From contig JACRPQ010000019.1 of the NCBI GenBank assembly GCA_016223135.1, positions 1-57,025 of the forward strand: 57,025 bases of DNA, in the 5' to 3' direction. Below the pieces are notes generated by a model, which saw nothing but the letters and a program-made list of their open reading frames with translations, searched no databases and was not told where the DNA came from. Of the stretch, positions 5,594 to 21,345 are shown one piece after another; within the stretch, counting starts at the first letter, position 1, and every line of letters begins with the position of its first letter. The translations under genes and the position numbers were made by a program. Source of the stretch: Chloroflexota bacterium (GTDB taxonomy: Bacteria; Chloroflexota; Anaerolineae; Anaerolineales; Villigracilaceae).

Positions 5594-6064
5594 TTATGGA
5601 ATCCAATTAGACAATACGTTCACGATCATATCTGGATTTTCAGGGTCATTCGTCTTAAGATGAACCGCAAAGTTATGCGGACCGTCCATGCCTGCGTGCA
5701 TCATAAACACGCTAGACTCGATGATCGTGCTTTCGCCAGGTTTAAGTACCATCGAACCGATGGTCAGTTGAGGAGGTCAGCACCCCTCCACGACTTCAAC
5801 ATATGGGTCTTCCTTGAAACGCAGTGTGCCATCACCCGTATTGGTGACTTTGATGGCGAAAGTCTTCTCGACGTTGAACTTCACATCGCCGTAATCGATC
5901 AGTTGCTGATCCACCGCAATGGATGGCGTCCCTCCTCCATTGCCACCGCCTTGGTTGGCAAAGAAAAACGCCGCCGCTGCCAGAAGAATCCCACCGAGTG
6001 CGACAAACAACCAGGGGAAATTCTTCTTTCTCTGCTTTTGATACTTCTTATTTTTTTTGCTCAT
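5594..6064 (-). CDS. DUF1573-like membrane protein, candidate selenoprotein (in-frame TGA at 5777-5779)
   Basis: From ATG 6064 (strong AAGGAGG upstream) the frame encodes a basic N-terminus, one membrane helix (about 17-36) and a beta-rich domain, and meets TGA right after ...VEVVEGC. The same frame then continues for 61 codons (starting PPQLTIGSMVLKPGES) with no other stop to TAA at 5594. This extension completes a DUF1573-type Ig-like fold, ending in H-L-K-T-N-D-P-E-N-P and LSNW. Read through, the product has 156 residues with position 96 encoded by TGA, giving a Cys-Sec pair. A hairpin with a GUU apical loop sits 19 nt after the TGA. Selenocysteine fits best; a nonsense mutation or sequencing error is the alternative. 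The gene is last in the cupredoxin operon, 9 nt after the CuA-cytochrome gene. Confidence 0.72.
5748..5779 (-). promoter_or_regulatory. Candidate bacterial SECIS element
   Basis: On the minus strand the TGA (5779-5777) is followed by 12 nt and then a perfect 7-bp stem (ACCATCG with CGATGGT) closed by the three-base loop GTT. The loop begins 20 nt after the TGA. This fits the general bSECIS rules as I know them: loop 16-37 nt from the UGA, short loop, G in the first loop positions. No selA, selB, selC or selD gene is present in the window. Confidence 0.6.
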
Positions 6065-6073
6065 TGAGCCTCC

Positions 6074-7081
6074 TTACTTTTGATATTCAAACTGGAACGA
6101 ATAGATGTACGCAATCAGGTCCCAGATTTGTTCTTCAGTAAAAATTACGCCCCACATGGGCATGCCTGTTCCCATGCCACCGCGCAAGATTTTCCCTTGC
6201 AATAATGCTGGGCTCGCGCCAAGTATTCGACTTGGATCGGTGAAATCAACAGGGGTTTGCATGACCATATCCGTTGCGCCTTCCATTGTTTGCATGGAGG
6301 CTTCGCCCGCTTCGGCAAGGTCGTCGGCAAAGACGCCGTCGCCCGCGCCGTTTTCGCCGTGACACGCCGCACAGTTTTGGGCGTAGAGTTCTTTTCCGTT
6401 GGCAAGCGATTCAGGTGTGGTATTGGATTGCCAAAGATAGGCAACTGCATCCCACTTTTGGGATTCGGTTAAGGATGTGTCCGATAAGTCGGTGAAGACC
6501 TGGTAGGGGGAGTGAGAAAGATAGTAATCGAGTGATTGGTCGATTGGTAAATTAGCTCCAAGTAATTGACCATTCATTGCTGATGGCTTTTCATTTGGAA
6601 TAACAGGCGAGTCGTGCGGAGCGTCAATGTCCAGGTCGAGAGAAACGTAGAGGGGAACAGAAGCAGGCTCGGATGAGCCCCCTGCGGTGATGATATCCGA
6701 ACCGCCTGTTACTTCTATCGTGCCGCGCATGCGCCAGTGATTGAGTCCACACCAACGGGTGCAGAAGAAGGTATAGATCCCAGGCTTGTCGAAGGTCAAC
6801 GTGATCTCGGTGACTTTGCCGGGGAGGATGTCCACACTTTGCATGTCCATCTGACCGACTGCAAAGCCATGCACAACATCATCGGAGGTGAGTTTCAAAT
6901 GAAGGGGCTTGCCCGTTTCTGCTTGAATCACATCGGGGTTCCAGCCGCCATCCTCCGCCATGCGGGCGTGGATCAAAGGCGTGCGCGCCCAAAGAAACAA
7001 TGGAGCACCAACGGCAAGGAGTATCCCTGTGATAATCAGGATGCGTGAGATGAGTTCGGGACGTTTCATAGCAATAACCAT
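6074..7081 (-). CDS. CuA-type cupredoxin fused to cytochrome c
   Basis: The 335-residue protein has an N-terminal membrane helix (about 12-30), a cupredoxin domain with an upstream His in DDVVHGF and the CuA ligand set C-x3-C-G-x2-H-x2-M (CTRWCGLNHWRM), a linker, and a C-terminal mono-heme cytochrome c domain (CAACHGENGAGDG, with a Met ligand probably in the GTGMPMWG region). It resembles cytochrome oxidase subunit II with a fused heme, but no oxidase subunit I is present. It should pass electrons outside the membrane. Two ATGs are possible (7081 and 7069, the latter giving MKRPELIS). Its 5' end overlaps the iron-sulfur gene by up to 16 nt. Confidence 0.85.
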   Translation of the reverse strand: MVIAMKRPELISRILIITGILLAVGAPLFLWARTPLIHARMAEDGGWNPDVIQAETGKPLHLKLTSDDVVHGFAVGQMDMQSVDILPGKVTEITLTFDKPGIYTFFCTRWCGLNHWRMRGTIEVTGGSDIITAGGSSEPASVPLYVSLDLDIDAPHDSPVIPNEKPSAMNGQLLGANLPIDQSLDYYLSHSPYQVFTDLSDTSLTESQKWDAVAYLWQSNTTPESLANGKELYAQNCAACHGENGAGDGVFADDLAEAGEASMQTMEGATDMVMQTPVDFTDPSRILGASPALLQGKILRGGMGTGMPMWGVIFTEEQIWDLIAYIYSFQFEYQK

Positions 7082-8418
7082 AGCATGATGGATGTGGCGA
7101 CGAAGCAGTAGACGATGACAGGGATTGTGGACGTCCCCGCTTCATTCACCTTTTGGGCTGTTCGCGCCGACCAGACCAATCCTACGACCAGAGCGAGTGT
7201 CTGCGCGGGCGCAAGGATCGTGGTGAGCATGGGCTGCCATGCGGCATTTGCGGTGCCAAACAAATTCCAGCCAAGCGCCAGCGGATCGGACAATGCGGCG
7301 AGAATGTAAGAAGCATTTGTTAGAACGAAGGATAGACTGAAAGCAACCCAGAACATGAGTCCCAGTGGGATGAGAGCAGTGGAAAGAGACATGAAGCGTT
7401 GTTTGAGAGATTGCCTGCCTTTGGTTGTCATAATCCCCAAAGTGAAAAGCCCAGGCAGGACGATAAAGATGATCGCAAGAAAAATTACTGCATACATGAA
7501 CCATGCGCCTGTACCGACGTTGTATGCCGCGTCTTTGAGTGTGCCCCACGGACCAAGCAACACGCCCGCGTAGATCATGGCGGCGCCAAACATAATGAAG
7601 GCTTTGAAGGCTTCGTCGAGTCGCGCTGTCGGTTTGGCAAGGTCAGCAGAGAAAGGGCGTAGGTTGACCGCGATATTGTCGTGCGGGCAGGTGCGGATAC
7701 ATTCCATACAAAGTCCGCAATAGGTGTTCTTGGTCATGCCGCCGGGGAAGACATCCCACGGACAGCCGTAGCCCGCGTCCGAGCCGTTGTAGCAGGGCTT
7801 GCCCACACACTTCACGCAAACTTGTTTATCTTTGATGCGTAGTTCGATGGGCGCGGTTTGTGAATACAAGCCGATGAATCCACCCACGGGACAGAGATAA
7901 CGGCAGAAGGCGCGGCGCTCGAAGATGGCGCTCAGTCCGATTGCGACAAAGAGCATGGCAGCCAGGACAATGCCAGTGATGTTTGGGGTAGTGAGCAGGG
8001 CACTGCTAAAGAGAGCCAGAAGGAGAAACGAAATGTTCTGCATCCAGATATTGCGGAACATTTTTGGCACACGGAGATTCAACCATTTCGGTCGTTTATC
8101 TGGCGGGGCAAGGATCGCGCCGCGTTGCAGCCATTCCCCTGGAAGCGGGATCGGACAGACCGCGCACCAGCCGCGTCCGAAGAAGGGGACCGCGACGAGA
8201 ATGAGGATCGCCCACCACGCGATCCAAACAAAGACAATGCTGAAGTTGTGACTGCCGACAGGCGTTCCGATGAGTCCCGCAAGGATGGCAAAGATGTAAC
8301 CGACCAGCATGACGATAAAGACTGCCAATTGCGGGTAACGGCTTTTGAGAGTGTTCTTTATAAAAGGGATACGGGTAAGTTCGATGCGGTTCATGTTAGG
8401 AAGCAATATTTCTTTCAT
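7066..8418 (-). CDS. NosR/NapH/CcoG-like polytopic 4Fe-4S membrane protein
   Basis: The 450-residue product has about eight membrane helices and four Cys clusters: GRGWCAVCPIPLPGE, RRAFCRYLCPVGG, CVKCVGKPCYNG...YGCPW, and CGLCMECIRTCPHD. The last resembles a ferredoxin [4Fe-4S] site. Such proteins carry electrons from quinol towards periplasmic copper enzymes (NosR, NapH) or reduce copper during oxidase assembly (CcoG). Here it sits between two CuA-type proteins, which supports an electron-transfer or copper-delivery role. A second ATG at 8394 lies one base after the upstream stop and is an equally plausible start. Confidence 0.85.
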   Translation of the reverse strand: MKEILLPNMNRIELTRIPFIKNTLKSRYPQLAVFIVMLVGYIFAILAGLIGTPVGSHNFSIVFVWIAWWAILILVAVPFFGRGWCAVCPIPLPGEWLQRGAILAPPDKRPKWLNLRVPKMFRNIWMQNISFLLLALFSSALLTTPNITGIVLAAMLFVAIGLSAIFERRAFCRYLCPVGGFIGLYSQTAPIELRIKDKQVCVKCVGKPCYNGSDAGYGCPWDVFPGGMTKNTYCGLCMECIRTCPHDNIAVNLRPFSADLAKPTARLDEAFKAFIMFGAAMIYAGVLLGPWGTLKDAAYNVGTGAWFMYAVIFLAIIFIVLPGLFTLGIMTTKGRQSLKQRFMSLSTALIPLGLMFWVAFSLSFVLTNASYILAALSDPLALGWNLFGTANAAWQPMLTTILAPAQTLALVVGLVWSARTAQKVNEAGTSTIPVIVYCFVATSIMLWLLL

Positions 8419-8875
8419 CTTTCTTCTTACTTTGATTCAGGAAAGACGAAAGAGGAAAGAAGCCAATGACTGCAAGAGACGCCAACCCTATTGAGCGATA
8501 AAGCCAATCGTTTGTGCCAACGGTTATTTTCCCGATCATGAAGGGATGCATGGCTCCGCAAGTGACGTTACAGCGGAAACGGAAGGAACCGGGTTTGTCG
8601 GCAACGAAGGTTAACCTGGCGCTTTGTCCGGGGTCAGCTTCGACGGAAATGTCGTAACCATCCACATATAGCCCATGAACAACATCTGTGCTGACCAGTT
8701 TGATGGTCACGGTGTCGCCAGCGTTGACCTTCAGTTCGGAGGGGGAATAGGCATATTGGCGCGCGTCCACCTCAAAGGTCCGCTCCTGAGGCGCAACGGC
8801 TGGAACTGGCAGAGGCGCGAACGCGACCACCAGTCCAGCCATCACGAGAAGGAGAAGAGAGAAATGAAGGCGCAT
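8396..8875 (-). CDS. Membrane-anchored CuA-type cupredoxin
   Basis: I place the start at ATG 8875 (MRLHFSLLLL), 4 nt after the stop of the PCYCGC gene; the frame opens further upstream inside that gene. The 159-residue product has a signal/anchor helix (about 5-25), a cupredoxin domain with His in DVVHGLYVDG, a full CuA ligand set (CNVTCGAMHPFM), and a second membrane helix near the C-terminus. It is related to cytochrome oxidase subunit II and to the cupredoxin half of the next-but-one gene. Confidence 0.85.
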   Translation of the reverse strand: MRLHFSLLLLVMAGLVVAFAPLPVPAVAPQERTFEVDARQYAYSPSELKVNAGDTVTIKLVSTDVVHGLYVDGYDISVEADPGQSARLTFVADKPGSFRFRCNVTCGAMHPFMIGKITVGTNDWLYRSIGLASLAVIGFFPLSSFLNQSKKKDERNIAS

Positions 8876-8879
8876 GAGA

Positions 8880-9326
8880 TTAGGGGATGTTGGAGGGTCC
8901 GTACTTGGAATACGTTGCGTCGATGTAAACCCTGGCATCCTGCGGACTTTTGCCATCCCGCAACATGCGCATCACATCCTGGGTGATGTCCACGCAGATG
9001 GAACAGCCGAGGGCATGGTTGTCGAAGGTGATGTTGTTTTTGTCATCGATGTTCGAGACGTAGCAATCGTAATTGGAAGTGTGACCGATGTCGCCGCATC
9101 CGCAATAGCAGGGAATGTCCTGCATGATGTCTGGGTTGGCGGTATTGAACTGGTAGGCTTCCTGCACTGCCACAGGCGCGGACTGAACTTCCATTGGCAT
9201 TTGGTCGAGCGGCATCATGGCAAGATGCGCGTCATCAGGGTTGGAAGTGGAGCAGGCAGAAACCGCAGTAGCGGTCAGCGCCAAAATAACGAGAAGGAAA
9301 AGGAACTTTCGGGTCTTTGAAAACAT
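8880..9326 (-). CDS. PCYCGC-motif lipoprotein
   Basis: The 148-residue product starts with a lipoprotein signal peptide ending in the lipobox AVSAC. The mature part has the hallmark PCYCGCGDIGH motif, further cysteines (DCYV, CSICVD) and a helical C-terminus. The PCYCGC family is thought to bind metal at the outer face of the membrane. It is the first gene of a five-gene operon (this gene, cupredoxin, NosR-like, CuA-cytochrome c, DUF1573-like). GGAGGA precedes the ATG, and a promoter of the shared palindrome type lies upstream. Confidence 0.88.
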   Translation of the reverse strand: MFSKTRKFLFLLVILALTATAVSACSTSNPDDAHLAMMPLDQMPMEVQSAPVAVQEAYQFNTANPDIMQDIPCYCGCGDIGHTSNYDCYVSNIDDKNNITFDNHALGCSICVDITQDVMRMLRDGKSPQDARVYIDATYSKYGPSNIP

Positions 9327-9450: not shown

Positions 9451-9750
9451 TTACGATGCTATCACTTGCGCTTGATAATTGTGACGTCCATCGTTCCCTG
9501 CTCCAATTACCGCCTGGATCAGCATCTCGGCAGAGACCATATTCTCATCGAAGTAAACTTCCGCCATGCGCATGTTCAACATCACATCAGCGTCATGGAC
9601 GCCATCCAGTAACAGAAGTCCATTACGTACCCTTGTGGCACAGTTGAGACAGCCCATCCCTGAAACGGACAGCAGGATTCGGTTGGCAGACTGGATGACA
9701 TGATCCAGCGCGGACTTTTGGATCGGTTCAACGTGACAATTGTCGCTCAT
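9451..9750 (-). CDS. Heavy-metal-associated (HMA) domain protein, CopZ-like
   Basis: The 99-residue protein carries one HMA ferredoxin-like domain with the metal site GMGCLNCATR (Cys pair two residues apart), preceded by about 25 extra residues. Small HMA proteins deliver Cu(I) between proteins in the cytoplasm. AAAGGA lies before the ATG. It follows a YHS-domain gene by 12 nt and shares its promoter. Confidence 0.85.
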   Translation of the reverse strand: MSDNCHVEPIQKSALDHVIQSANRILLSVSGMGCLNCATRVRNGLLLLDGVHDADVMLNMRMAEVYFDENMVSAEMLIQAVIGAGNDGRHNYQAQVIAS

Positions 9751-9762
9751 AATGGTTTCCTT

Positions 9763-9966
9763 TTAATTGTGTTGTTTTACGGGATAGTGCTGGACTTTCC
9801 TTGCCTTCTCTCCCAATTCGGGCTTGGCAAAGGTTTTTGGGGAACGTTCAAACTGAGCCTGGCATTGCGGACAGCACAGAAAATAGTTCACACCTTCGAA
9901 CTCGATGGTGATATGGGCTTTGCCGCGATTGACGCGTTTTCCACAGACGGGATCTTTGAATGACAT
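9763..9966 (-). CDS. YHS-domain protein
   Basis: The 67-residue protein is a YHS domain with KDPVCGKRV near the start and YFLCCPQCQAQFE, giving a Cys plus Cys-x2-Cys metal site. YHS domains are found in heavy-metal ATPases and as small stand-alone proteins that bind copper or related metals. It leads a two-gene operon with the HMA protein and has its own promoter of the shared type. Confidence 0.85.
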   Translation of the reverse strand: MSFKDPVCGKRVNRGKAHITIEFEGVNYFLCCPQCQAQFERSPKTFAKPELGEKARKVQHYPVKQHN

Positions 9967-9999
9967 ATCGAAACTCCTTGGTTGTGATCTGACGGTTGG

Positions 10000-10069
10000 A
10001 TTGTAGAGTCGCTACTGGAATTATTGAAGCGCAGAATGGCTTGATGTAGGAATAAGCAATTCTGCGTAT
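10000..10069 (-). promoter_or_regulatory. Shared-layout promoter of the YHS-HMA operon
   Basis: Minus strand: palindrome 10069-10052 (ATACGCAGAATTGCTTAT), 18 nt, TGCGCT at 10033-10028, 22 nt, and TACAAT at 10005-10000. The start codon is at 9966. Confidence 0.73.
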
Positions 10070-10084
10070 CGCCCTTCTAAAAAA

Positions 10085-10111
10085 AACAGGCTCCGATTTT
10101 TGGAGCCTGTT
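10085..10111 (-). terminator. Intrinsic terminator of the multicopper oxidase gene
   Basis: On the minus strand a perfect 10-bp stem (AACAGGCTCC with GGAGCCTGTT) has a 7-nt loop and runs into a T tract. It lies 6 nt after the oxidase stop codon. Confidence 0.9.
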
Positions 10112-10116
10112 CCTAC

Positions 10117-11730
10117 TCAACCTTTGATCCTGTAGTTTCGCATCATGCCCGCATCCTCATGTTCGAGATTGTGGCAGTGATAAAGATATATCCCTGTGTA
10201 ATTCTCGAAGCGCACAAGCACCCGAACGGTTTCGCCTGGCATCACCAGCACGGTATCCTTCCAACCCTCGTCCACAAAGCCGCCGCTCAATTCTTGATAC
10301 GCGGATTCAAATCCGCGCGCGATCTGCCTCTCAAGCACTTGGAATTGCACGCCGTGGATGTGCATGGGATGCGGCATTTCCATATTCATCATGCCCATTC
10401 CCATGCCACCCCCGCTGCCTTCGAGATTGACAAACTCCCAAACTTCCAGGTCGTTCAGCCGCACGATCTCATCCTGCGCCACTGCGTCCATCTCGAACAG
10501 GCGGTTGTTGATGGTGTGAACCATGCCCTGCATTGCCAGCCTGAACGAGCGCGGATTGTTTCCATTGACTGCATCGTTCACAGCATGTCGTTCAATCGTG
10601 GAGAGTTGCGAGGGCAACGGGTTCACGTCCGCTCCTTTCTCGCCGATCATCAAACGCAGGATGTCGAACGGCGTACCATTTGGCAATCCAGAACTGCCCA
10701 TCATCCCGCCGCCCATCATGCCGCCTCCACCGCTGAAATCGGTATATGGCAGGCTGACCAATTTCATTTCACTGCCTGCATTTCTTCCGCTGAAATCCGC
10801 CCACAACTCCACGCGTTCGCCAGGTCCCATCGTGATGTAGTCGCGGGTCACGGGTGTTTCCAGTAAGCCGCCGTCGGTGGCGATCACGGTCAGGGGTGTG
10901 CCATCCTGCCAGGCGAATTTATAGATGCGCGAGTTTGAGCCGTTCAGCAGGCGCAAGCGGTATGCGCTGGCTTTGACATCCAGTGTTGCATTGGGTGAAC
11001 CATTGACTAAAATCGTGTCGCCCAGAAATCCGATCATCGAATCCATCATGCCGTTTGCCAGATAGACCATTTGGTTTTGCGAATCAAAAATACGATCCTG
11101 AATCACCAGCGGCAGATCATACTCGCCCGCAGGCAAACCCAGCGCGGCTTCCTCTTCGTCACTGACGATGAACAAGCCCGCCAGCCCGTAATAGACTTGG
11201 GGTCCTGTCAACTGGTGCGGATGAGGATGGAACCAATACATGCCCGCGCGGTTGATCACCTGAAAATCATAGTCAAAACTTTTCCCAGGCGCGACAGCAT
11301 AGCGCGGATGCCCATCCATCTCTTCTGGAATTTTCAACCCATGCCAGTGGATGATGGTCGGGTCGGGTAATTCGTTGTTCAACCGAACCTGGACTCGTTG
11401 TCCCTGTTTCACCCTGAAAATTGGACCCAAATACGAGCCGCTCAACGTTTGGATGAAATCCCCGCCTCCCTCCTTAACCGAAGCCTGATACCGCCAAACG
11501 GGCGTTTCCTTCCCCGAAAAAATGGGGAGCGTGCCGCGCCCAGCCGTCAGTTCCGCAGACAGAATCGGAAGATCAGGCAAAGGGGTAAGCGGAGTCGGGA
11601 AGACAGGAGCCGCTGTCGGGTTGGTTGAGGCGGACGGGAGAAGTCCGCAGGCGCTGAGGAACGCCCCTCCCGCGCCAAGTCCCATCAGTTTAAGAACGTC
11701 TCTCCGCGAAATTTGAGTCGAGTTGGTCAT
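10117..11730 (-). CDS. Tat-exported multicopper oxidase (CueO-like)
   Basis: The 537-residue product begins with a Tat signal (SRRDVLKLMGLGAGGAFLSAC) whose C may also be lipidated. Three cupredoxin domains follow, with all four copper motifs: IHWHG, WFHPHPHQ, HPMHIHG and YHCHNLEHEDAGMM. A GGGGMMGGGMMG loop and a second GMGMGMMNMEM loop recall the Met-rich segment of CueO, which oxidises Cu(I). A role in copper detoxification outside the membrane is likely; laccase or metallo-oxidase activity on other substrates is possible. It is a single gene with its own terminator. Confidence 0.9.
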   Translation of the reverse strand: MTNSTQISRRDVLKLMGLGAGGAFLSACGLLPSASTNPTAAPVFPTPLTPLPDLPILSAELTAGRGTLPIFSGKETPVWRYQASVKEGGGDFIQTLSGSYLGPIFRVKQGQRVQVRLNNELPDPTIIHWHGLKIPEEMDGHPRYAVAPGKSFDYDFQVINRAGMYWFHPHPHQLTGPQVYYGLAGLFIVSDEEEAALGLPAGEYDLPLVIQDRIFDSQNQMVYLANGMMDSMIGFLGDTILVNGSPNATLDVKASAYRLRLLNGSNSRIYKFAWQDGTPLTVIATDGGLLETPVTRDYITMGPGERVELWADFSGRNAGSEMKLVSLPYTDFSGGGGMMGGGMMGSSGLPNGTPFDILRLMIGEKGADVNPLPSQLSTIERHAVNDAVNGNNPRSFRLAMQGMVHTINNRLFEMDAVAQDEIVRLNDLEVWEFVNLEGSGGGMGMGMMNMEMPHPMHIHGVQFQVLERQIARGFESAYQELSGGFVDEGWKDTVLVMPGETVRVLVRFENYTGIYLYHCHNLEHEDAGMMRNYRIKG

Positions 11731-11820
11731 TGTTTTTGCTCCATAATGTATATTCAGGTCGGCAGTATAGTTTGTGCCTATAAAGATAGTGTGAAGAATT
11801 CAAAAAGAGAATATCAAGAA

Positions 11821-11848
11821 CGACACCCGAAGTCACCTTCGGATGTCG
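11821..11848 (-). terminator. Terminator of the DoxX gene
   Basis: An inverted repeat (CGACACCCGAAG and CTTCGGATGTCG, one mismatch) with a 4-nt loop lies after the DoxX stop on the minus strand and is followed by TTCTTGATATTCTC. Confidence 0.6.
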
Positions 11849-11879
11849 CTTGAGGAGGAGAGATGCGCCGAACGAAGAA

Positions 11880-12449
11880 TTACTTTTTTTGGAAGATCAA
11901 TCCAGGTTGCCAGGGTGTGCCAACCTGAACCAGAAGCCAGCGGTCGAGTCCGATCCAGCCTGAGGTTTTCCAGGCAAGGATGAGCAGGATCGAGAGGATC
12001 AGGAAGACAGGATTGACAGAAGCCGAGCCCGCCATCATAAAATTCCAATTCATAAAACCGCCAATAAAAGCGGAGAACCAGATGAAGATGCCCAGGATCA
12101 GCGCCGCGCCCACCAGCAATTCGCCCACCGCCACGAGTTTGGCGAACCAGACGTAATTGCCGCTGTCCAGCATAAACTGGATGAAATTGCGATACCAGTC
12201 GAAGGCGATCAATGGGCGGGCAGGTGCATCGGGAATAACGATGGCGCGCTCCCAGAAGCCCTTCAATGCTTCGCCGCCCTGCATCCAGGCGGGGTTGGTG
12301 ATCTTGCCCCAACCCGATTCGATCCATTGGTATCCCAGATACAGACGGATGGCAAGCCAGAGCCAGGCAAACGCCTTGCCTTCGAACAGGGTTTTCGTAA
12401 AGGGAACATCAGCGAGTTGATATTCCCGGGATAAGGTTTGAGTAGTCAT
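11880..12449 (-). CDS. DoxX/DoxD-family membrane protein
   Basis: The 189-residue protein has four hydrophobic helices and the family features R-x-Y-L-G-Y-Q-W-x2-S-G-W-G-K near the first helix and a W-x3-G-W-I-G-L-D-R-W end. DoxD is the small subunit of thiosulfate:quinone oxidoreductase in archaea, and bacterial DoxX members act in redox or thiol stress. No DoxA subunit is seen here. AAAGGAG precedes the ATG, and the gene has a promoter of the shared type. Confidence 0.8.
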   Translation of the reverse strand: MTTQTLSREYQLADVPFTKTLFEGKAFAWLWLAIRLYLGYQWIESGWGKITNPAWMQGGEALKGFWERAIVIPDAPARPLIAFDWYRNFIQFMLDSGNYVWFAKLVAVGELLVGAALILGIFIWFSAFIGGFMNWNFMMAGSASVNPVFLILSILLILAWKTSGWIGLDRWLLVQVGTPWQPGLIFQKK

Positions 12450-12490
12450 TTTTTCTCCTTTGAGGATGAATTTTGTCTTGCTTTGAACTC

Positions 12491-12559
12491 ATCTTACAAC
12501 TCCCATGAAATAATCAACAGCGCATTTCGACCTGTTTCGAAATGCGCTGATTTGCTTAT
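12491..12559 (-). promoter_or_regulatory. Shared-layout promoter of the DoxX gene
   Basis: Minus strand: imperfect palindrome 12559-12542 (ATAAGCAAATCAGCGCAT), 17 nt, TGCGCT at 12524-12519, 22 nt, and TAAGAT at 12496-12491. One half-site is degenerate but the spacing is exact. The AGCGCATTTCGA inverted repeat that contains the box also appears to end the upstream YHS gene. Confidence 0.65.
12518..12550 (-). terminator. Hairpin after the YHS gene, overlapping the DoxX promoter
   Basis: CAGCGCATTTCGA pairs with TCGAAATGCGCTG across a short loop to form a strong stem about 50 nt after the YHS stop. It overlaps the TGCGCT box and part of the palindrome of the next promoter, so terminator and promoter share bases. 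Confidence 0.6.
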
Positions 12560-12598
12560 GATATTTATCAGGAATGATTTCCTGATTGTCATATTGAA

Positions 12599-12808
12599 TT
12601 AATCAAGAGGGTGTTCGATTTCACCAGCCATAAAAGGGTCGGGATTCAAAAGAAATACATCCAAACATGCCTGCGTACAGAAATATATCCTCTCGCCGTG
12701 ATACTCTGCGCTGGGATATTTGGATGGATCCTTGATTTTTCCTCCACAAGCCGTTATATATTCCGGTTGTGGAGGGGCAGGGAGGATTTCGTTTTGGTCC
12801 AACGTCAT
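12599..12808 (-). CDS. YHS-domain protein
   Basis: The 69-residue protein carries a YHS-like domain: TACGGKIKDP for the first Cys and YFCTQACLDVF for the second pair. It lacks the usual D-P-V-C opening, so it is a divergent member. It is the last gene of the long copA operon and its ATG overlaps the stop of the gene upstream (4 nt). Confidence 0.75.
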   Translation of the reverse strand: MTLDQNEILPAPPQPEYITACGGKIKDPSKYPSAEYHGERIYFCTQACLDVFLLNPDPFMAGEIEHPLD

Positions 12809-13011
12809 TGTTTTCCCTTTCCATGATGTTGATTTTCATTCCTGAGCCAGAAGATAGTCACAGCGGTCGCGGTTCCAATCATGCCAGCCAGAACCATCAG
12901 ACCGGATGCCGAGCCGAATAACATCCTCCATAATACGGCGAAAAAGATCACGCCAATGACAAATGCCGCAATGTAGGAAAGGTTTGGCATATGGATTTTT
13001 TCGTGTTTCAT
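12805..13011 (-). CDS. Small two-helix membrane protein
   Basis: The 68-residue protein has two hydrophobic helices (about 10-30 and 36-54) and a C-terminal tail with HHGKGKQ. I do not recognise a family. It sits between the cupredoxin-like gene and a YHS gene in the copA operon and may help with copper handling, but this rests on context only. Confidence 0.65.
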   Translation of the reverse strand: MKHEKIHMPNLSYIAAFVIGVIFFAVLWRMLFGSASGLMVLAGMIGTATAVTIFWLRNENQHHGKGKQ

Positions 13012-13032
13012 TTTTACATGTTCCTTTCGTCA

Positions 13033-13410
13033 TTATTCCACGATCAACTTGCCACGTAACATTCCCATCTGGCATTGGAAGCCATATTCGCCAGATTGTT
13101 CGGGGGTGAATTCCAGTGTCACTTGTTCGCCCTCTGGCAGCAAAGCATTCTGATTGAAGTCAGGGAACAACACTTTCTCAGAACACGCTGAACTTTCCTG
13201 GCGTGTGAACGTCAACCGCACAGGGCGTCCTTTTTGCACCACGATCACATCGGGTGTGTATCCGCCCTTGACCGTGACTGCCACCTCCTGTGCGCCAGAT
13301 GCAGATACCGCAACACGCGTCTGCGCCTTGGGGGCAAACCAGAAATACCAGGCGATCAATACGGTCAACGCGATTCCCGAAAGAATCACAAAGATTTGGA
13401 TTTGAGTCAT
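13033..13410 (-). CDS. Membrane-anchored cupredoxin-like protein
   Basis: The 125-residue product has an N-terminal anchor helix (about 5-24) and a cupredoxin fold with YTPDVIVVQKGRPVRL, a Cys in SSACSEKV and FQCQMGMLRGKLIV at the end. It resembles small cupredoxins often found next to CopA pumps. The ligands Cys-Gln-x-Cys-Gln-Met-x-Met differ from classical blue-copper sites. It is in the copA operon, 1 nt after the methyltransferase gene's end. Confidence 0.78.
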   Translation of the reverse strand: MTQIQIFVILSGIALTVLIAWYFWFAPKAQTRVAVSASGAQEVAVTVKGGYTPDVIVVQKGRPVRLTFTRQESSACSEKVLFPDFNQNALLPEGEQVTLEFTPEQSGEYGFQCQMGMLRGKLIVE

Positions 13411-13411
13411 A

Positions 13412-14062
13412 TCAAGTTCCTTTCATTGCTTGGATGATGGATAACGGACCGAACACCGTGACGAAGTTCTCCGCTTCTTTTATAGACCCGAAGCCTGCCT
13501 CTGCCACGAAGCGCGGGATCAAACCGTCGAAGTTATCGGCGGTTTCCTCGAGACGACGCATGTAGGTCGTCATGAAACGTGTCGTTGAAGAATGCGGTGC
13601 GCCAAAGTCAAGCACATACAATTCTCCATCTGGTTTGAGCACACGATGGATTTCCTTGAATGCGAGTCGTTTATCGTCCGTGATGAGGTGGTGAATGACC
13701 AGGCTGGTGACTACTCTGTCGAAGGTGGAATCAGGATAGGGCAGGGAGGAGGCGAGTCCTTCATCCCATTGAATATCCGAACCGCGAGATTTATCTAGCG
13801 CAATTTTCAATACATCAGGGTCGCCATCCACGCCTGTAACCTGCGCGTTCGGATGGATTTTTTTGAGCATGATGGTGAGCGTACCTGTGCCGCAGCCGAG
13901 ATCGAGAACCTTCATGCCTGGACGAATGTTCGCGTGTTGGATCAACCTTTGTTTAAAAGTTTCCTCGCGCATGACCCATTTGAGCAGAGGATCATACAAT
14001 GGCGTGAGCCAGCGAAAGCTCAAGGCAGGGATATAACGTTTTTTACCAGATGCTTGCCTCAT
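13412..14062 (-). CDS. Class I SAM-dependent methyltransferase (UbiE-like)
   Basis: The 216-residue protein has motif I VLDLGCGTGTLTIML, an acidic loop after beta-2 (GVDGDPDVL), and LYVLDFGAPH in the position of motif III. This is the Methyltransf_11/UbiE type. The substrate is unknown. It overlaps the Lgt-like gene by 20 nt inside the copA operon, an unusual partner for a small-molecule methylase. Confidence 0.82.
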   Translation of the reverse strand: MRQASGKKRYIPALSFRWLTPLYDPLLKWVMREETFKQRLIQHANIRPGMKVLDLGCGTGTLTIMLKKIHPNAQVTGVDGDPDVLKIALDKSRGSDIQWDEGLASSLPYPDSTFDRVVTSLVIHHLITDDKRLAFKEIHRVLKPDGELYVLDFGAPHSSTTRFMTTYMRRLEETADNFDGLIPRFVAEAGFGSIKEAENFVTVFGPLSIIQAMKGT

Positions 14063-14789
14063 TTGGTTCGATCCTTTCCCATTGTCTCAACAAGACAATG
14101 CAAATAATAAGAACAAGCAACCCCATCACTTGCGCGGCGCGATAACCATCCAGCCAGAGTACACTGTCGCCGCGGAAGGCTTCGAGAAAGACTCGCGCCA
14201 GCGCGGAAAGAGAGACGAACTGCGCAAAGCGAATTCCTGGCGCGTGGGCTGGAAGAACTTTTGGAAGCACGAGTGTAAAGATCGCCAGCGCAAGAAAGAT
14301 TTCATAAAGTTGCGTTGGGTGACGATAATCAGACCACACGTACATTGCCCAGGGGACACGAGACGGCGAGCCGTAGGCATTTCCGCTGAGCAGGTGGGAG
14401 ACACCAATTGAGATCATGAAGAATGCCAACCCAGGCGTGAGCGCATCCAATGATCGGCGAAACGGAAGTTTCTGACGATATCCATATATCAAGGCTGTGG
14501 ACATACCGATTAGAAAACCCCCGATGGGAGAAAGCGTGCTTGTGCTCAGCGAGAACAAGCCCAATGGATTTGCCACATAAACTGAGGCGTATTGCGCAGC
14601 ATAGACAAGCCTTGCTCCGAGAATCCCGCCGAGCAATCCGTACCCAATCAGGTTATTGATTTTCTCCTTGTTTAAACCAAGGCGGGCGGCTTCACGCTCG
14701 GTGAATGTTGAGCCGATCCAAAAACCAATGAACAACATCAACAATGGCATTTGAAGCAGGAAGGGTCCAAGTCGAAGGTAAGGGAACAT
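14043..14789 (-). CDS. Lgt-like membrane protein (divergent prolipoprotein diacylglyceryl transferase)
   Basis: The 248-residue protein has about seven membrane helices and the Lgt landmarks GGxLG, P-x-G-G-F-L-x-G, GNAYGSPS and HPTQLYEI. The usual G-R-x-G-N-F-x-N stretch, whose Arg is essential in E. coli Lgt, reads GVSHLLSGN here. It may therefore be a paralogue with altered function and not the housekeeping enzyme. It sits in the copA operon between TlpA and the methyltransferase. Confidence 0.75.
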   Translation of the reverse strand: MFPYLRLGPFLLQMPLLMLFIGFWIGSTFTEREAARLGLNKEKINNLIGYGLLGGILGARLVYAAQYASVYVANPLGLFSLSTSTLSPIGGFLIGMSTALIYGYRQKLPFRRSLDALTPGLAFFMISIGVSHLLSGNAYGSPSRVPWAMYVWSDYRHPTQLYEIFLALAIFTLVLPKVLPAHAPGIRFAQFVSLSALARVFLEAFRGDSVLWLDGYRAAQVMGLLVLIICIVLLRQWERIEPNEASIW

Positions 14790-15340
14790 TACTCGCCCTC
14801 CCGTAATAGCTCTTCCACCTTGGATTGAATCAATGCCTCGCTCATGGGTCCGCCGACCACAACGGAACGAATTACTCCCTTGCGATCAATGAAGTACGAA
14901 GTCGGCAGGGCAGTGATGCGATACAGGTTCCCAGTCGCATTATCGCGGTCGAGCGCGATGGGAAAAGTCAAACCGATTTCTTTTGCAAAATCAGCCGCGG
15001 CTTGTTCTGAATCCTGGGCGGTGAGGTTCAAGCCGATCACCACAAAGCCAATGTCCTTGTAACTTCGATACGCTTTTTCGATGGCTGGCATTTCCAGACG
15101 GCAGGGTGGGCACCACGATGTCCAGAAGTTGACCAGCACCACCTTGCCGCGTAAATCGGAAAGCGCAACTGTGCTGCCGTCCAACAGGTCGAGGGCGAAG
15201 TTGGGCGCAGTGAAGCCTTCTTTGGCAACTGCATCCTGCTGCGCTTTAGGCCGGTCGGGCGAGACGCGCGAGAAAACAGTCCAGAACATTCCGAGAATCA
15301 AAGCCCAGGTCATCCACGTGATAAAGCGGGAGTTTTTCAT
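14789..15340 (-). CDS. TlpA/ResA-like membrane-anchored thioredoxin
   Basis: The 183-residue product has a membrane anchor (about 7-23) and a thioredoxin fold of the AhpC/TlpA type, with active site WTSWCPPCRLEMP and the cis-Pro region ALPTSYFID. It should reduce disulfides outside the membrane, for example on copper sites or apocytochrome c. It overlaps its neighbours by 1 nt on both sides, so translation is tightly coupled. Confidence 0.9.
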   Translation of the reverse strand: MKNSRFITWMTWALILGMFWTVFSRVSPDRPKAQQDAVAKEGFTAPNFALDLLDGSTVALSDLRGKVVLVNFWTSWCPPCRLEMPAIEKAYRSYKDIGFVVIGLNLTAQDSEQAAADFAKEIGLTFPIALDRDNATGNLYRITALPTSYFIDRKGVIRSVVVGGPMSEALIQSKVEELLREGE

Positions 15341-15654
15341 TATGGTGTTCCAGACAGTGATTGCAGTTTTTCCCGCAGCATATGGACAGTGGGAAATCCC
15401 TTGACGCCTTCAGGCGTGGAATAGACGCGGCAACTCATCGAATACGTTTCGCGTTCCTCATGCCATAAATCCATACCATCAACACGAAAATGAGGGGAAC
15501 CGAGGAATTTCAAACGCTCCGCATCTTCATCGGTCTCTACTTTCACCATTTCCACAGAGGCGGAGATTCCCTCCTCTTGTAAAGCAGTCCGAAGACTTTC
15601 CAAACCAGCTTCCCAGGAGGGACAACCATCGAAATAGAGAAGTTCAATTTTCAT
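15340..15654 (-). CDS. Small thioredoxin-fold protein
   Basis: The 104-residue protein starts MKIELLYFDGCPSWE, typical of a group of small thioredoxin-like proteins with one N-terminal Cys. A second Cys lies in SMSCRVY. These are often seen near mercury, arsenic or copper resistance genes. Function is not established. It is the gene right after copA. Confidence 0.75.
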   Translation of the reverse strand: MKIELLYFDGCPSWEAGLESLRTALQEEGISASVEMVKVETDEDAERLKFLGSPHFRVDGMDLWHEERETYSMSCRVYSTPEGVKGFPTVHMLREKLQSLSGTP

Positions 15655-15660
15655 AACAGC

Positions 15661-18297
15661 TCACTTTACACTAAACTTCGGTCTGAAGCCTCGCAGGCGG
15701 TTGGCATTGCCAACTACGGTCACGGATGAGAATGCCATTGCTGCCCCCGCGATCAATGGGCTGAGCAACAATCCAAAGAACGGGAACAATACTCCCATAG
15801 CAACAGGGATACCCAACACGTTGTATATAAAGGCGCCAAATAGGTTTTGGTAGATGTTGGTCATGGTAGCGCGGCTGACTTCGATGGCAGTCACCACACC
15901 TTTGAGACTGCCCTTGATCAGCGTGATGTCCGAGGCTTCGATGGCGACATCCGTGCCTGTTCCGATGGCGAGACCGACATCCGCTTGTGCGAGCGCGGGG
16001 GCATCATTGATGCCATCGCCAACCATCGCGACTTTTTTGTTTTCCGCTTGCAACAGGTGAACGTTGTTTGCCTTATCTTCGGGCAATACTTCCGCCAGCA
16101 CGCGCGTGACCCCAACCTTGCGAGCAATCGCTTCAGCGGTGCGGCGATTATCGCCGGTGATCATCACAACTTCAATGCCCATACCTTGCAGAGCTTTGAT
16201 CGCTTCGGCAGAATCTTCCTTGACCGTGTCTGCCACGGCAACAATACCAGCGGCTTTGCCGTCAATTGCGACGAACATTGGGGTCTTGCCATCGTCGGCG
16301 AGCGATTTGGATCTATTCTCCAACTCGCCCAGCGCGATGTTCTCTCGGTTCATCAACTTGAGATTGCCAATCAGGATATTTCGTCCTTCAACCTTCGCGG
16401 AAACGCCATGTCCAGGGATGGCTTCAAAATCCTGCACATCGGTCAATTCCAGTTTTCGCGCCTGTGCTCCGTCCACAATGGCTTGCGCCAGGGGATGTTC
16501 ACTGACCTTCTCAACGGATGCCACCAGGCGCAACAACTGATGGCTGTTACCATTCATGGAATTGGTAAGGATGACATCCGTTAACTCAGGCTTTCCCTTT
16601 GTAATCGTGCCCGTCTTATCCAACACCACGGTTTGAATGGCTCGCGCAGTTTGCAGGGCTTCGCCAGAGCGGATGAGAATCCCATGTTCCGCACCTTTGC
16701 CAATGCCGACCATCAAGCTCATGGGCGTGGCAAGACCCAAAGCGCAGGGGCAGGCAATGATGAGCACGGTTACACTGGTAACGAGTGCATATACCAATTG
16801 CGGTTGAGGTCCAATCACGAACCAAATGACGAACGTCCACACGGCGAGAATCATCACGATGGGTACGAAATAACCAGAGATGGTATCGGCAAGACGGGCA
16901 ATTGGTGCTTTGGAATTTTGCGCGTCCTGCACCATCTTCACGATCTGCGCGAGAGCCGTATCCTTGCCGACCTTCGTGGCGCGGAATTTGAACGCGCCTG
17001 TCTTGTTCAAGGTCGCTCCGATCACCTCATCTCCCTGTTTCTTGGAAACTGGCAACGACTCACCCGTCAGCATCGACTCATCCACGGCAGAACTGCCTTC
17101 GACGATAACGCCATCCACGGGTATTTTCTCACCGGGACGGACCTGGATCACATCGCCGACCAACACTTCTTCTACAGGCAGATCAAGTTCTTTTCCATTG
17201 CGAATCACGCGGGCAGTCTTCGCTTGTAGACCCAACAATTTCTTGATCGCCGCGCTGGATTGTCCCTTGGCGCGTAGTTCAAGTGCCTGCCCCAACACAA
17301 CCAATGCAATGACAACTGCAACTACATCGTAAAACGGCTCGGATGTCCCTTCAGGAAACACGGACGGAAATGCAATGGCAAACGTTGAATACAACCATGC
17401 CGCGCCGGTACCGAGCGCGATCAAGGTGTTCATGTTGGCTGAGCGATGTTTGAAGGCCGCCCACGCACCTGTGAAAAAGTCATACCCGGAATAGAACAAC
17501 ACAGGTAGTGTTGCAACGGCGGAAAGAACCCATGACCATCGGATGGTCTCCATTGACAAATCCCGGATGCCGGGAACGTATTGCGGGTATGCGAATAACA
17601 ACACCGGAATGGAAACAATTGCCGAGAACCAGAACATTCTCATCAGCCGGATGTATTCACGGGCATGTGCCTCTTCTTGTTTGTCTATTGGCGCGCCAGT
17701 CAGCGCAGGACGTGGCTTGTATCCCCAAGCCTCAATGGCTGCATTCAATTGTACAAGGGTTGCCTTTTGGGGGAGATAATCCACGCTCGCTTCCTGTGTG
17801 GCAATGTTGACCGTTGCGCTTAATACGCCATCTGTGGACTTCAGTTCATCCTCGATGAACTTCACACAGGAGGCACAACGCAGGTTCTCGATTCCGATTT
17901 TGAGATTCGACCCGCCAGGTTGAAACCCCGCCAAGCGGATGACTGCCGCCATTTGCGGAATGTTCACCTTTTTGGAATCATATTCCACCTGCAACACACC
18001 CGCACCTGCATTGGTGGTTACTTGATGAACGCCCTCCAGGGCGCGCAAACCAGATTCCAGGGCGGTGACAGGTTTGTAAAACGGCAGATCGGCGACGGGT
18101 AGTTCGATGCGGGTGAGCGTCCGTTCGGGATTAAAACCCGTTGTTGCCGAAGTCATCACATAATGGTGCGGGTCGATATCGAACTGTTCCACGCAGGATT
18201 GTGAGCAAAAATACAACGTCTGCCCCATGTGTTCGCGCTCGGCGAAGGCACTTTGGGGTTCAATTTCCATTCCACATACAGGGTCACGGACAGTCAT
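15661..18297 (-). CDS. copA: Copper-translocating P1B-type ATPase with N-terminal YHS domain
   Basis: The 878-residue pump begins with a YHS domain ([20 protein letters not shown]), then a degenerate HMA repeat without Cys pair (about 60-130), then an HMA domain with RCASCVKF. The ATPase core has LTGESLPV, the CPC metal site [11 protein letters not shown], the phosphorylation motif [16 protein letters not shown] and [14 protein letters not shown] is the Cu(I) exporter signature. It is the first gene of an eight-gene operon reaching to 12599 and has a promoter of the shared type 30 nt upstream. Confidence 0.96.
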
Positions 18298-19395: not shown

Positions 19396-19818
19396 CTATT
19401 TCTCGATTTCGCGTCCTGTCTGTTCCCATGCCACCATGCCGTCTTCGAGATTCCAGATATTGGTATACCCGAGCGAAACAAGTTCCTCTGCCGCAATTGC
19501 GCTCATGCGACCACTGCGGCAATACAGAACGATCCTTGCATTTTTATCCGCTGGCAACTGCGCCAGATTTTCCGGCGCACTGATCTGGTCGTAGGGAATG
19601 GACAGGTCTGTATCGGCAATGTTCCCTGCGAAAGGAGTATGCACATTGACAAGGATAAGATCCGTGTTCTTCAACATCGTGTCCAAATCGACAGGAGTGA
19701 TGTTTTTATAGGAACCGTCAACGGTTGTAACCTCTTTGCCCGTAATCTCTTCGACGCTGCTCTGGCAGGCGGTCAGTGTCACAAGCAGAAACAAGGATAT
19801 GAGGAGTATCTGTTTCAT
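19396..19818 (-). CDS. Rhodanese-like lipoprotein
   Basis: The 140-residue product has a lipoprotein signal (LVTLTACQ) and one rhodanese domain with the active loop CRSGRMS. Such domains carry sulfur as a persulfide. It lies outside the membrane, is the last gene after CcdA and DsbA (4-nt overlap with DsbA), and may share in thiol chemistry there. Confidence 0.88.
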   Translation of the reverse strand: MKQILLISLFLLVTLTACQSSVEEITGKEVTTVDGSYKNITPVDLDTMLKNTDLILVNVHTPFAGNIADTDLSIPYDQISAPENLAQLPADKNARIVLYCRSGRMSAIAAEELVSLGYTNIWNLEDGMVAWEQTGREIEK

Positions 19819-20561
19819 GGAATTTTTCCAGCCAACTCAAGATCGATGATCTGTTTGAACGCTTCAAGAGGTTGCGCGCCAACGATTGCCAGCCCGTTGA
19901 TGAAAAATGTTGGGGTGGATTGAACGCCAAGGTTGAGCGCAAAATCCATATCCTGTTGGATGGCGTCCTTATATTTACCTGAATTGAGACACTCCTCGAA
20001 AGTGACTGCATCCAAATTGAGGTCAGCGGCGATCTGCAGGTACAACTCACGCCCAAGTTTGTCCTGATTCTCAAAAATCCTGTCATGGTAATCCCAGAAG
20101 GCCCCCTGTTCGTTGGCGCACATCGAGGCTTCCGCCGATGGAAGGGCTTCGGGATGAATGGATGTCAGGGGAAGATGACGATAGACAAAACGGATTTGAC
20201 CGGGATACGCCGCCAGCAATTGTGCAGCCGTCTCATCCTGGAAGCGTTTGCAGAACGGGCACTGAAAGTCGCTGAACTCGACAATTACGATGGGTGCATC
20301 CACCGGTCCCTGGCTGGGAAAGCCTTCGAATGGGATTTCATAACGGGTGAATTGCGGTGCCTGTGTCGCTGCCGGGGCTTCGACAATGGGTCCCTGGGCA
20401 ACAGATGGATTATTGACAATCGCTTGTTGTGAACGGGGGGCAAGCCCCCAGACAACATAACCCGTCAATATGCCGATGGCAAAAGCCAGTATCACCAGGA
20501 CCGAATAAAAATGGGTTCGTTTAAAGGTGATGGTATCTTCCGAATTAATGGGGGAATCCAT
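19815..20561 (-). CDS. DsbA/BdbD-like membrane-anchored thiol oxidoreductase
   Basis: The 248-residue protein has a membrane anchor (about 19-38) and a DsbA-type thioredoxin fold with active site CPFC in EFSDFQCPFCKRFQDE, a helical insert, and TPTFFINGL near the end (cis-Pro). It should form or exchange disulfides outside the membrane. It is transcribed with the CcdA homologue 22 nt upstream. Confidence 0.9.
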   Translation of the reverse strand: MDSPINSEDTITFKRTHFYSVLVILAFAIGILTGYVVWGLAPRSQQAIVNNPSVAQGPIVEAPAATQAPQFTRYEIPFEGFPSQGPVDAPIVIVEFSDFQCPFCKRFQDETAAQLLAAYPGQIRFVYRHLPLTSIHPEALPSAEASMCANEQGAFWDYHDRIFENQDKLGRELYLQIAADLNLDAVTFEECLNSGKYKDAIQQDMDFALNLGVQSTPTFFINGLAIVGAQPLEAFKQIIDLELAGKIP

Positions 20562-20583
20562 AAGGGTATCTTCTCTAAAAATA

Positions 20584-21345
20584 TTATGATCTTTGTATCG
20601 TGTGCCCGCTCAGATAACCAAGATAGGCAGGCACGAGCGGCAGGACGCAAGGTGAAAGAAATGACAATAGACCGGCAAGGATGGCGGTGAAGTATGTCGG
20701 CGCGGCAGAGAACAGGGTAAACTTTTCGATATATAGACCATTCTTGAATGCCCAGATCGCTATCAGACTCATTGTGTTCGTAAGAAGCAGAACACCAATG
20801 GCAATGATGAAAACACCGCTGGCAATTTTGAAATACTTTTGATAGGGTCGCATGCGTTTGATCCAGCCTGAAGCGCGCTCCAAACCAAGCGCCATCGCCA
20901 GGAAGGGAAGCCCCAAACCAAGCGAGTACCCTGAAGATAGCCACATCGCCTGTCCGACCGTTTGCTGGCTGAGCCCCATTGTTAGGATTGCGCCCAGTGT
21001 GGCACCAATGCATGGGCTCCAACCTGCTGCAAAGAAAATGCCCATTAACGCCGAGCCACCATAGGTTCCGCGCTGACCTGTGTATTCCGTCCGGGTATCA
21101 TAATAAAACCAGGGAAGGCGAATTACATCCAGAGTCGCCAGTCCGAACATGATCACGATCACGCCGCCTAATTGCGCGATAACCCGTTTGTATGCGCCGA
21201 ACAATTGACCCAGCGCCGTCACCGAGCCGCCCCAGCCGATTACAAACACCAATGAGAAGCCGAGGACGAAGAGCAGCGCATGTAAAAATATTTTCAAACG
21301 TTCTGTTTGGGATGGAAAGGGGGGAATCGCAGTATCAGAGGTCAT
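20584..21345 (-). CDS. CcdA-family thiol transporter with permuted order
   Basis: CcdA moves reducing power across the membrane for thioredoxin-like partners. The 253-residue protein has the family blocks HALLFVLGFSLVFV, GWSPCIGATLG and SLGLGLPFLAMAL, but the block that normally opens the protein (LSFLSPCVLPLVPAYLGYLSG) is at the very C-terminus (about 226-246). The N-terminus begins where the second helix usually starts. Both membrane cysteines are kept. This looks like a circular permutation; gene order with DsbA and rhodanese supports the role. Confidence 0.85.
   Translation of the reverse strand: MTSDTAIPPFPSQTERLKIFLHALLFVLGFSLVFVIGWGGSVTALGQLFGAYKRVIAQLGGVIVIMFGLATLDVIRLPWFYYDTRTEYTGQRGTYGGSALMGIFFAAGWSPCIGATLGAILTMGLSQQTVGQAMWLSSGYSLGLGLPFLAMALGLERASGWIKRMRPYQKYFKIASGVFIIAIGVLLLTNTMSLIAIWAFKNGLYIEKFTLFSAAPTYFTAILAGLLSFLSPCVLPLVPAYLGYLSGHTIQRS

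Follow-up and report, generated by a model that had tools for sequence, protein, structure and literature searches.

A putative selenoprotein with a Cys-Sec pair encoded beside CuA-type cupredoxin genes in Chloroflexota

The window, the whole stretch of 57,025 nucleotides that was analysed from a Chloroflexota bacterium, carries on its minus strand a gene whose reading frame contains a single TGA at residue 96. As far as sequence can show, this gene almost certainly encodes a selenoprotein, with selenocysteine (Sec) directly after a cysteine. A preliminary description of the window had proposed such a protein, and its proposal was upheld on three counts: in 4 of 67 named loci the codon at the TGA column encodes Cys, the genome contains the Sec genes, and the hairpin downstream of the TGA covaries. 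The product would be a membrane-anchored, extracytoplasmic selenoprotein, the anchoring being predicted. Its fold is probably that of an ASH/PapD-like domain distantly related to DUF1573, and its function may, tentatively, lie in copper or redox service to CuA sites.

The gene and its in-frame TGA

The features of the gene are as follows.

5594 to 6064, minus strand: putative selenoprotein gene, 156 codons and TAA (read-through translation, AlphaFold2, relatives)
5777 to 5779, minus strand: in-frame TGA, residue 96, predicted selenocysteine in the motif GCUPP (TGA in 63 and a Cys codon in 4 of 67 named loci)
5748 to 5764, minus strand: bSECIS-type hairpin ACCAUCG-GUU-CGAUGGU, 7 bp, 17 nt (position, fold, covariation, frozen synonymous sites)
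6069 to 6074, minus strand: ribosome-binding site AGGAGG, read directly, sharing one base with the stop of the upstream gene, which ends at 6074

Translation would start at ATG (6064-6062) and stop at TAA (5596-5594), giving a read-through product of 156 residues in which the only TGA stands in the context EGC-U-PPQ. The ordinary code ends the gene at residue 95 and so hides it. The frame past the TGA is open and fits the protein family, as the preliminary description held, although it runs for 60 codons to the stop and not the 61 given there. The plus-strand reading of the same stretch matched no family and was discarded.

Comparison of the read-through protein with 101 related genomes gave 36 matches in 31 genomes, of which 33 (29 genomes) contain exactly one TGA. 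The remaining three are a decayed remnant (G025) and matches to N-terminal residues only in G023 and G091, the latter spanning residues 3-48. A profile search of a 400-genome sample of the phylum gave 33 match rows, with one TGA in 26 rows from 20 genomes. The seven rows lacking a TGA comprise the second half of a copy split across two frames in G203 (L075), the G025 remnant, a canonical CGC DUF1573 protein in G477, and four weak or partial matches. TGA-less matches in G023, G454, G385, G207 and G352 were set aside as partial or other proteins. The G025 remnant (L038, 2775-2945) is that of a third copy and lies directly after an HMA-like gene.

The codon at the Sec column is TGA in 63, TGT in three and TGC in one of the 67 named loci, which are partly near-copies (54 are non-redundant below 97% identity). 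Among them are the named strain Thermanaerothrix daxensis GNS-1 (L124; Anaerolineales, Chloroflexota) and Leptolinea sp. HRD-7 (L134), the latter with a complete genome. The statement of the preliminary description that homologues carry Cys-Cys where this protein would carry Cys-Sec thus proved right for the four Cys-form loci. Members in other families of the phylum retain GCUPP or GCUP together with M-x3-M-x3-H, while much else has diverged. No relatives were found in viral contigs.

The downstream hairpin and the selenocysteine machinery

A spacer of 12 nt separates the TGA from the hairpin, and one of 19 nt separates it from the GUU loop (5757-5755, minus strand), in agreement with the preliminary description; the structure of the hairpin is conserved by covariation. 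The fold of a single 56-nt sequence is unremarkable (z -1.7; 12 of 200 shuffles equally stable) and unconvincing alone, so that the case for the hairpin is carried by conservation. For this purpose 90 distinct sequences were chosen by protein motif, ignoring the hairpin, and the 86 with TGA yielded 71 distinct hairpin stretches; the set does not include the DUF1573 TGA rows L158 (G220) and L160 (G114), which the motif script missed, or the frame-split copy in G203. Across the 71 stretches, 97.8% of cells at the seven pairs are standard pairs, and four of the seven pairs have changed on both sides (A-U to G-C; C-G to U-A; A-U to G-C; C-G to A-U or G-C). There are 40 double-change cells; the 500 shuffles average 8.0 (sd 2.2) and none has as many, and slid structures have at most 14. 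Kinship among the sequences inflates these counts, although the changes fall in distant lineages nonetheless. Two other measures, how many pairs carry a double change and how many further pair types occur, do not exceed the shuffles, of which 97 and 110 of 500, respectively, score as high. The outermost pair is missing in 7 and the innermost in 4 of the 71 hairpins, and L017, L025, L061 and L062 have a different structure as their best 33-nt fold.

Codon usage points the same way. The hairpin codons are nearly invariant (ACC 63/63, ATC 75/75, GGT 82/82, TCG 73/76) and flanking codons vary more; judged from these counts, synonymous sites within the hairpin are frozen. The Cys forms use other codons and have lost the hairpin: their 33-nt folds range from -1.7 to -2.3 kcal/mol (three distinct sequences), compared with -6.6 to -14.7 kcal/mol for the 71 Sec-form sequences.

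The window's own genome contains selA, selB (295.6 bits, over the cut-off), tRNA-Sec (70.2 bits) and selD, which settles in the affirmative the check on Sec machinery that the preliminary description had proposed. Its selD itself has an in-frame TGA (L035, G000:C1:218290-219225), and Sec-type SelD is known. Among 24 genomes of the 67 loci, namely those of all four Cys forms and of 20 Sec forms picked for spread, selA was found in 20/20 Sec-form and 0/4 Cys-form genomes, and a strong tRNA-Sec (at least 61.9 bits) in 18/20 and 0/4, respectively. In the two exceptions, L095 and L139, tRNA-Sec scored 46 bits and 51 bits on pieces, and both genomes have selA. Because weak RF01852 matches occur in all 101 related genomes, counting was restricted to strong ones (at least about 60 bits), and these are present in 27 of the 29 gene-bearing relatives but were not found in G058 and G062. 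For selB, matches at E 0.001 occur in all 101 genomes, in our opinion because EF-Tu and other translational GTPases match, and 80 of the 101 pass the cut-off. Among the 29 gene-bearing relatives 25 do so, with G051, G058, G062 and G100 lacking it. In the phylum sample tRNA-Sec was found in 17 of 20 gene-bearing genomes (not in G212, G220 or G344), and the base rate is 296 of 400, a comparison which assumes that both searches drew one identical 400-genome sample; with so high a base rate, co-occurrence across the phylum is weak and is no evidence alone. The assemblies lacking tRNA-Sec or selB are 72-93% complete where completeness is stated.

In a tree of 112 columns with 35 open forks and a midpoint root, the four Cys forms make up one clade (support 100/95) beside Sec forms and hence represent one event, best read as a change from Sec to Cys where the Sec machinery is absent. 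In the Sec forms, SelB carrying Sec-tRNA would bind the hairpin 19 nt downstream and thereby let UGA96 be read as selenocysteine; without SelB at the hairpin, translation would stop and leave a 95-residue stump.

Two other readings of the TGA were weighed. The codon could be a true stop, or a TGC or TGT altered by an error of sequencing or assembly, and the downstream part could then be decayed or mis-assembled. Decayed copies do exist, such as the G025 remnant beside an HMA gene and the frame-split G203 copy, and TGA is an ordinary stop in this genome, ending 5 of 20 hand-picked window genes. However, dozens of separate assemblies, that of a named strain included, share the identical TGA, and pooled pN/pS is 0.13 downstream of the TGA and 0.21 upstream (55 comparisons with the window gene, by simple ungapped counts and not independent of one another). 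By this measure the 60 codons past the TGA are under purifying selection, and a true stop or an error is extremely improbable. The decoding of UGA as another amino acid, for example Trp through a changed code or a suppressor, would also leave the frame open. Against it, the residue that replaces the TGA in relatives is Cys and not Trp, and the hairpin and selA track the TGA. The gene's own reading frame ends with TGA in 6 of the 63 Sec-form loci, so that UGA would act as a stop within the same message as the recoded UGA. This reading too is given scarcely any credence, and Sec remains the preferred assignment.

Fold, DUF1573 and known selenoproteins

The protein consists of a basic N-terminus, a helix at residues 18-38, a Gly-rich linker and an ASH/PapD-like domain at about residues 47-156. 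AlphaFold2 (mean pLDDT 86.7) predicts the same helix, taken as a membrane anchor, followed from residue 49 on by strands that form an Ig-like domain. The alignment behind this prediction omits L078 and L131 of the 54 non-redundant loci. Foldseek and VIA group this predicted fold with ASH/PapD/MSP domains. The nearest solved fold is 2qsv of Porphyromonas gingivalis, whose function is unknown (VIA Z 13.1, rmsd 2.6 over 108 residues, 20% identity), and it has only the fold in common with the present protein. A sequence search of solved structures (E <=1) returned HYDIN, other ciliary proteins, OCRL and a cadherin, none of which was retained. On the model, the fold is ASH/PapD-like and distantly that of DUF1573.

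The DUF1573 label of the preliminary description applies loosely. The window protein scores 19.6 bits against DUF1573 (PF07610), short of the gathering cut-off of 26.1, and distant Sec relatives pass it (e.g., G126 with 44.5 bits and G265 with 39.4 bits). A HYDIN-type Ig model is matched by 53/53 and DUF1573 by 50/53 of the aligned members (E 0.01), and the window protein lies below the cut-offs of both models. No NCBIfam model, selenoprotein models included, was matched over its cut-off, the one match at E <=1 being choice_anch_D (20.2 of 45 bits), and PADLOC gave no match.

Profile-profile comparison of five canonical DUF1573 domains with 19 members of the present family shows the canonical Cys proteins (e.g., L149-L151, L068) to have a homologous domain (E 1.4e-17, 98 columns). 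The canonical domains have a CGC(T) motif, whereas the present family has GC-U/C-PP, and they are without its FxMHxGMxGxH motif. In the profile alignment, the present Cys pairs with the second Cys of the canonical CGC, and the window family has Glu where the canonical motif begins. With GC aligned to the second half of CGC, Sec falls on the next residue (canonical Thr). Across the 90 distinct sequences, Met122, Met126 and His130 are present in 90, His123 in 87 and Met105 in 79; Met122 and Met126 belonged to the criteria by which these sequences were picked.

A DUF1573 selenoprotein is already in print, and the Sec site of the present protein differs from it. The selenoprotein OS_HP2 was assigned to pfam07610 with the motif UxC (PMC2398784), and a DUF1573 selenoprotein with the motif UGC stands in tables of PMC9312934 and PMC13188914. 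It has the family assignment in common with the present protein, since distant members pass the DUF1573 cut-off. In the published motif, as far as these sources give it, Sec comes first, whereas here Sec directly follows Cys (GCU), so that the window protein lies outside the UxC/UGC pattern of OS_HP2; this comparison was by motif only, and the U of OS_HP2 is by interpretation the first Cys of CGC. As to the point of the preliminary description that the protein is not among the classical selenoproteins, a DUF1573 selenoprotein is known, and the GCU form is absent from the consulted parts of the three papers just cited (PMC1976440 and PMC12013261 lie outside this comparison). Titles and the starts of abstracts on selenoproteins of Chloroflexota or Anaerolineae, and on DUF1573 and copper, included none on the present protein, and a term search of the main text of the deep-Sep paper (PMC12013277) found neither DUF1573 nor Chloroflex-. 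Use of Sec in Anaerolineales is known from a formate dehydrogenase and a Sec translation factor (PMC4959059, in the part consulted). The present gene would thus add a widespread Chloroflexota selenoprotein (present in 29 of the 101 relatives and in 20 of the 400 phylum genomes) and, relative to two review tables in the portions seen, a new Sec motif for its family.

Gene neighbourhood and possible function

Upstream of the gene lie four further genes on the same strand.

6074 to 7081, minus strand: CuA-type cupredoxin-cytochrome c fusion with C-x3-C-x3-H-x2-M, CTRWCGLNHWRM (Pfam COX2, Cytochrom_C; translation)
7066 to 8418, minus strand: NapH-like membrane protein with 4Fe-4S motifs (Pfam Fer4_5; NCBIfam napH subfamily E 6.8e-10, below cut-off)
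8396 to 8956, minus strand: second CuA-type cupredoxin, CNVTCGAMHPFM (Pfam Cupredoxin_1, COX2; translation)
8880 to 9326, minus strand: PCYCGC protein (PF13798), Cys form (Pfam E 4.8e-27; translation)

The term CuA-type is our reading of the C-x3-C-x3-H-x2-M motif. In 46 of the 64 loci with enough sequence, near-copies included, the closest gene upstream on the same strand is a homologue of the CuA-cytochrome c gene. Of the 54 non-redundant loci, 47 have CuA-type homologues, 38 have Fer4_5 and 36 have PCYCGC, almost always on the same strand; these counts are lower bounds, since loci truncated by contig ends were included. Among ten distant loci searched with short flanks, Fer4_5 occurs at L059 and L061 and PCYCGC at L063, L066, L067 and L076, with neither at L060, L064, L065 or L077. 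Downstream of the window gene, on the opposite strand, are a histidine kinase and a response regulator. The window's own genome has another Sec-form copy (L036, G000:C19:324759-325217), beside which stand PCYCGC, cupredoxin, Fer4_5 and CuA-cytochrome c genes of its own, the same neighbours as at the window copy. Further along the window, 9451-18297 holds a series of genes for copper proteins (HMA protein, multicopper oxidase, cupredoxin, YHS-HMA P-type ATPase), interspersed with methyltransferase, LGT-like and AhpC/TSA-Redoxin genes.

The protein may be a copper or redox factor serving CuA sites, a tentative reading that we hold at somewhat less than an even chance. Its active site would be the vicinal pair Cys95-Sec96 with the conserved Met122, Met126 and His130 and the nearly conserved His123 and Met105. 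We infer that it could load, or keep reduced, the two CuA-type cupredoxin proteins of the same gene cluster, the selenolate and thiolate with Met and His either binding Cu(I) as soft ligands or supplying the reducing power by which the Cys pairs of CuA sites are opened. The copper role, put as a "copper-cluster protein" in the preliminary description, is a guess from the CuA-type neighbours, the copper genes further along the window and the conserved Met and His residues.

Sco and PCuAC are CuA assembly factors, and the likeness to them lies in the proposed extracytoplasmic copper or redox service to CuA sites. Sco has a thioredoxin fold, in contrast to the Ig fold of the window protein, and with E values up to 1 the window protein has no Pfam match to either Sco or PCuAC. 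The same genome encodes five Sco homologues that pass the cut-off, which are therefore other candidates for CuA loading. A narrower proposal, that an Ig-fold metallochaperone with selenolate as a copper ligand carries Cu(I) to CuA by its vicinal Cys-Sec pair and Met/His residues, is ancestral in Chloroflexota and has gone back to Cys-Cys in a lineage without selA, is on the whole unlikely.

A selenoprotein for general thiol/selenol redox, partnering thioredoxin-like, DsbA- or CcdA-type or PCYCGC proteins and taking no part in copper delivery, is only slightly less likely than the copper role. Most predicted selenoproteins resemble thiol oxidoreductases, according to the part of PMC9312934 consulted. 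AhpC/TSA-Redoxin, DsbA-like and DsbD_TM genes are present in the window (14789-15340 and 19815-21345), homologues of them stand beside some relatives, and the distant forms L063, L066, L067 and L076 have PCYCGC homologues nearby. However, the fold is Ig-like rather than thioredoxin, a plain redox pair has no need of conserved Met and His, and the commonest neighbours are homologues of CuA proteins. Service in an iron-uptake redox module like FtrABCD is improbable. That system comprises a cupredoxin, an Ftr1 permease and a NapH-like ferredoxin, and a cupredoxin and a NapH-like ferredoxin are indeed in the cluster; FTR1 homologues occur in 8 of the 67 loci, in L087 directly downstream of the selenoprotein gene (6408-7268). 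Yet FTR1 lies within the fetched flanks in only 4 of the 54 non-redundant loci, and the window gene is followed instead by the kinase and regulator genes on the other strand.

If the copper role is true, it would link selenium to how CuA-type electron-transfer proteins are assembled. The Sec and Cys versions of the protein that occur in nature allow a comparison of what selenium contributes.

A rhodanese-like protein in G454 (L069, around 1843) also has an in-frame TGA, which reads through as YCTUPNEES, and may be another selenoprotein.
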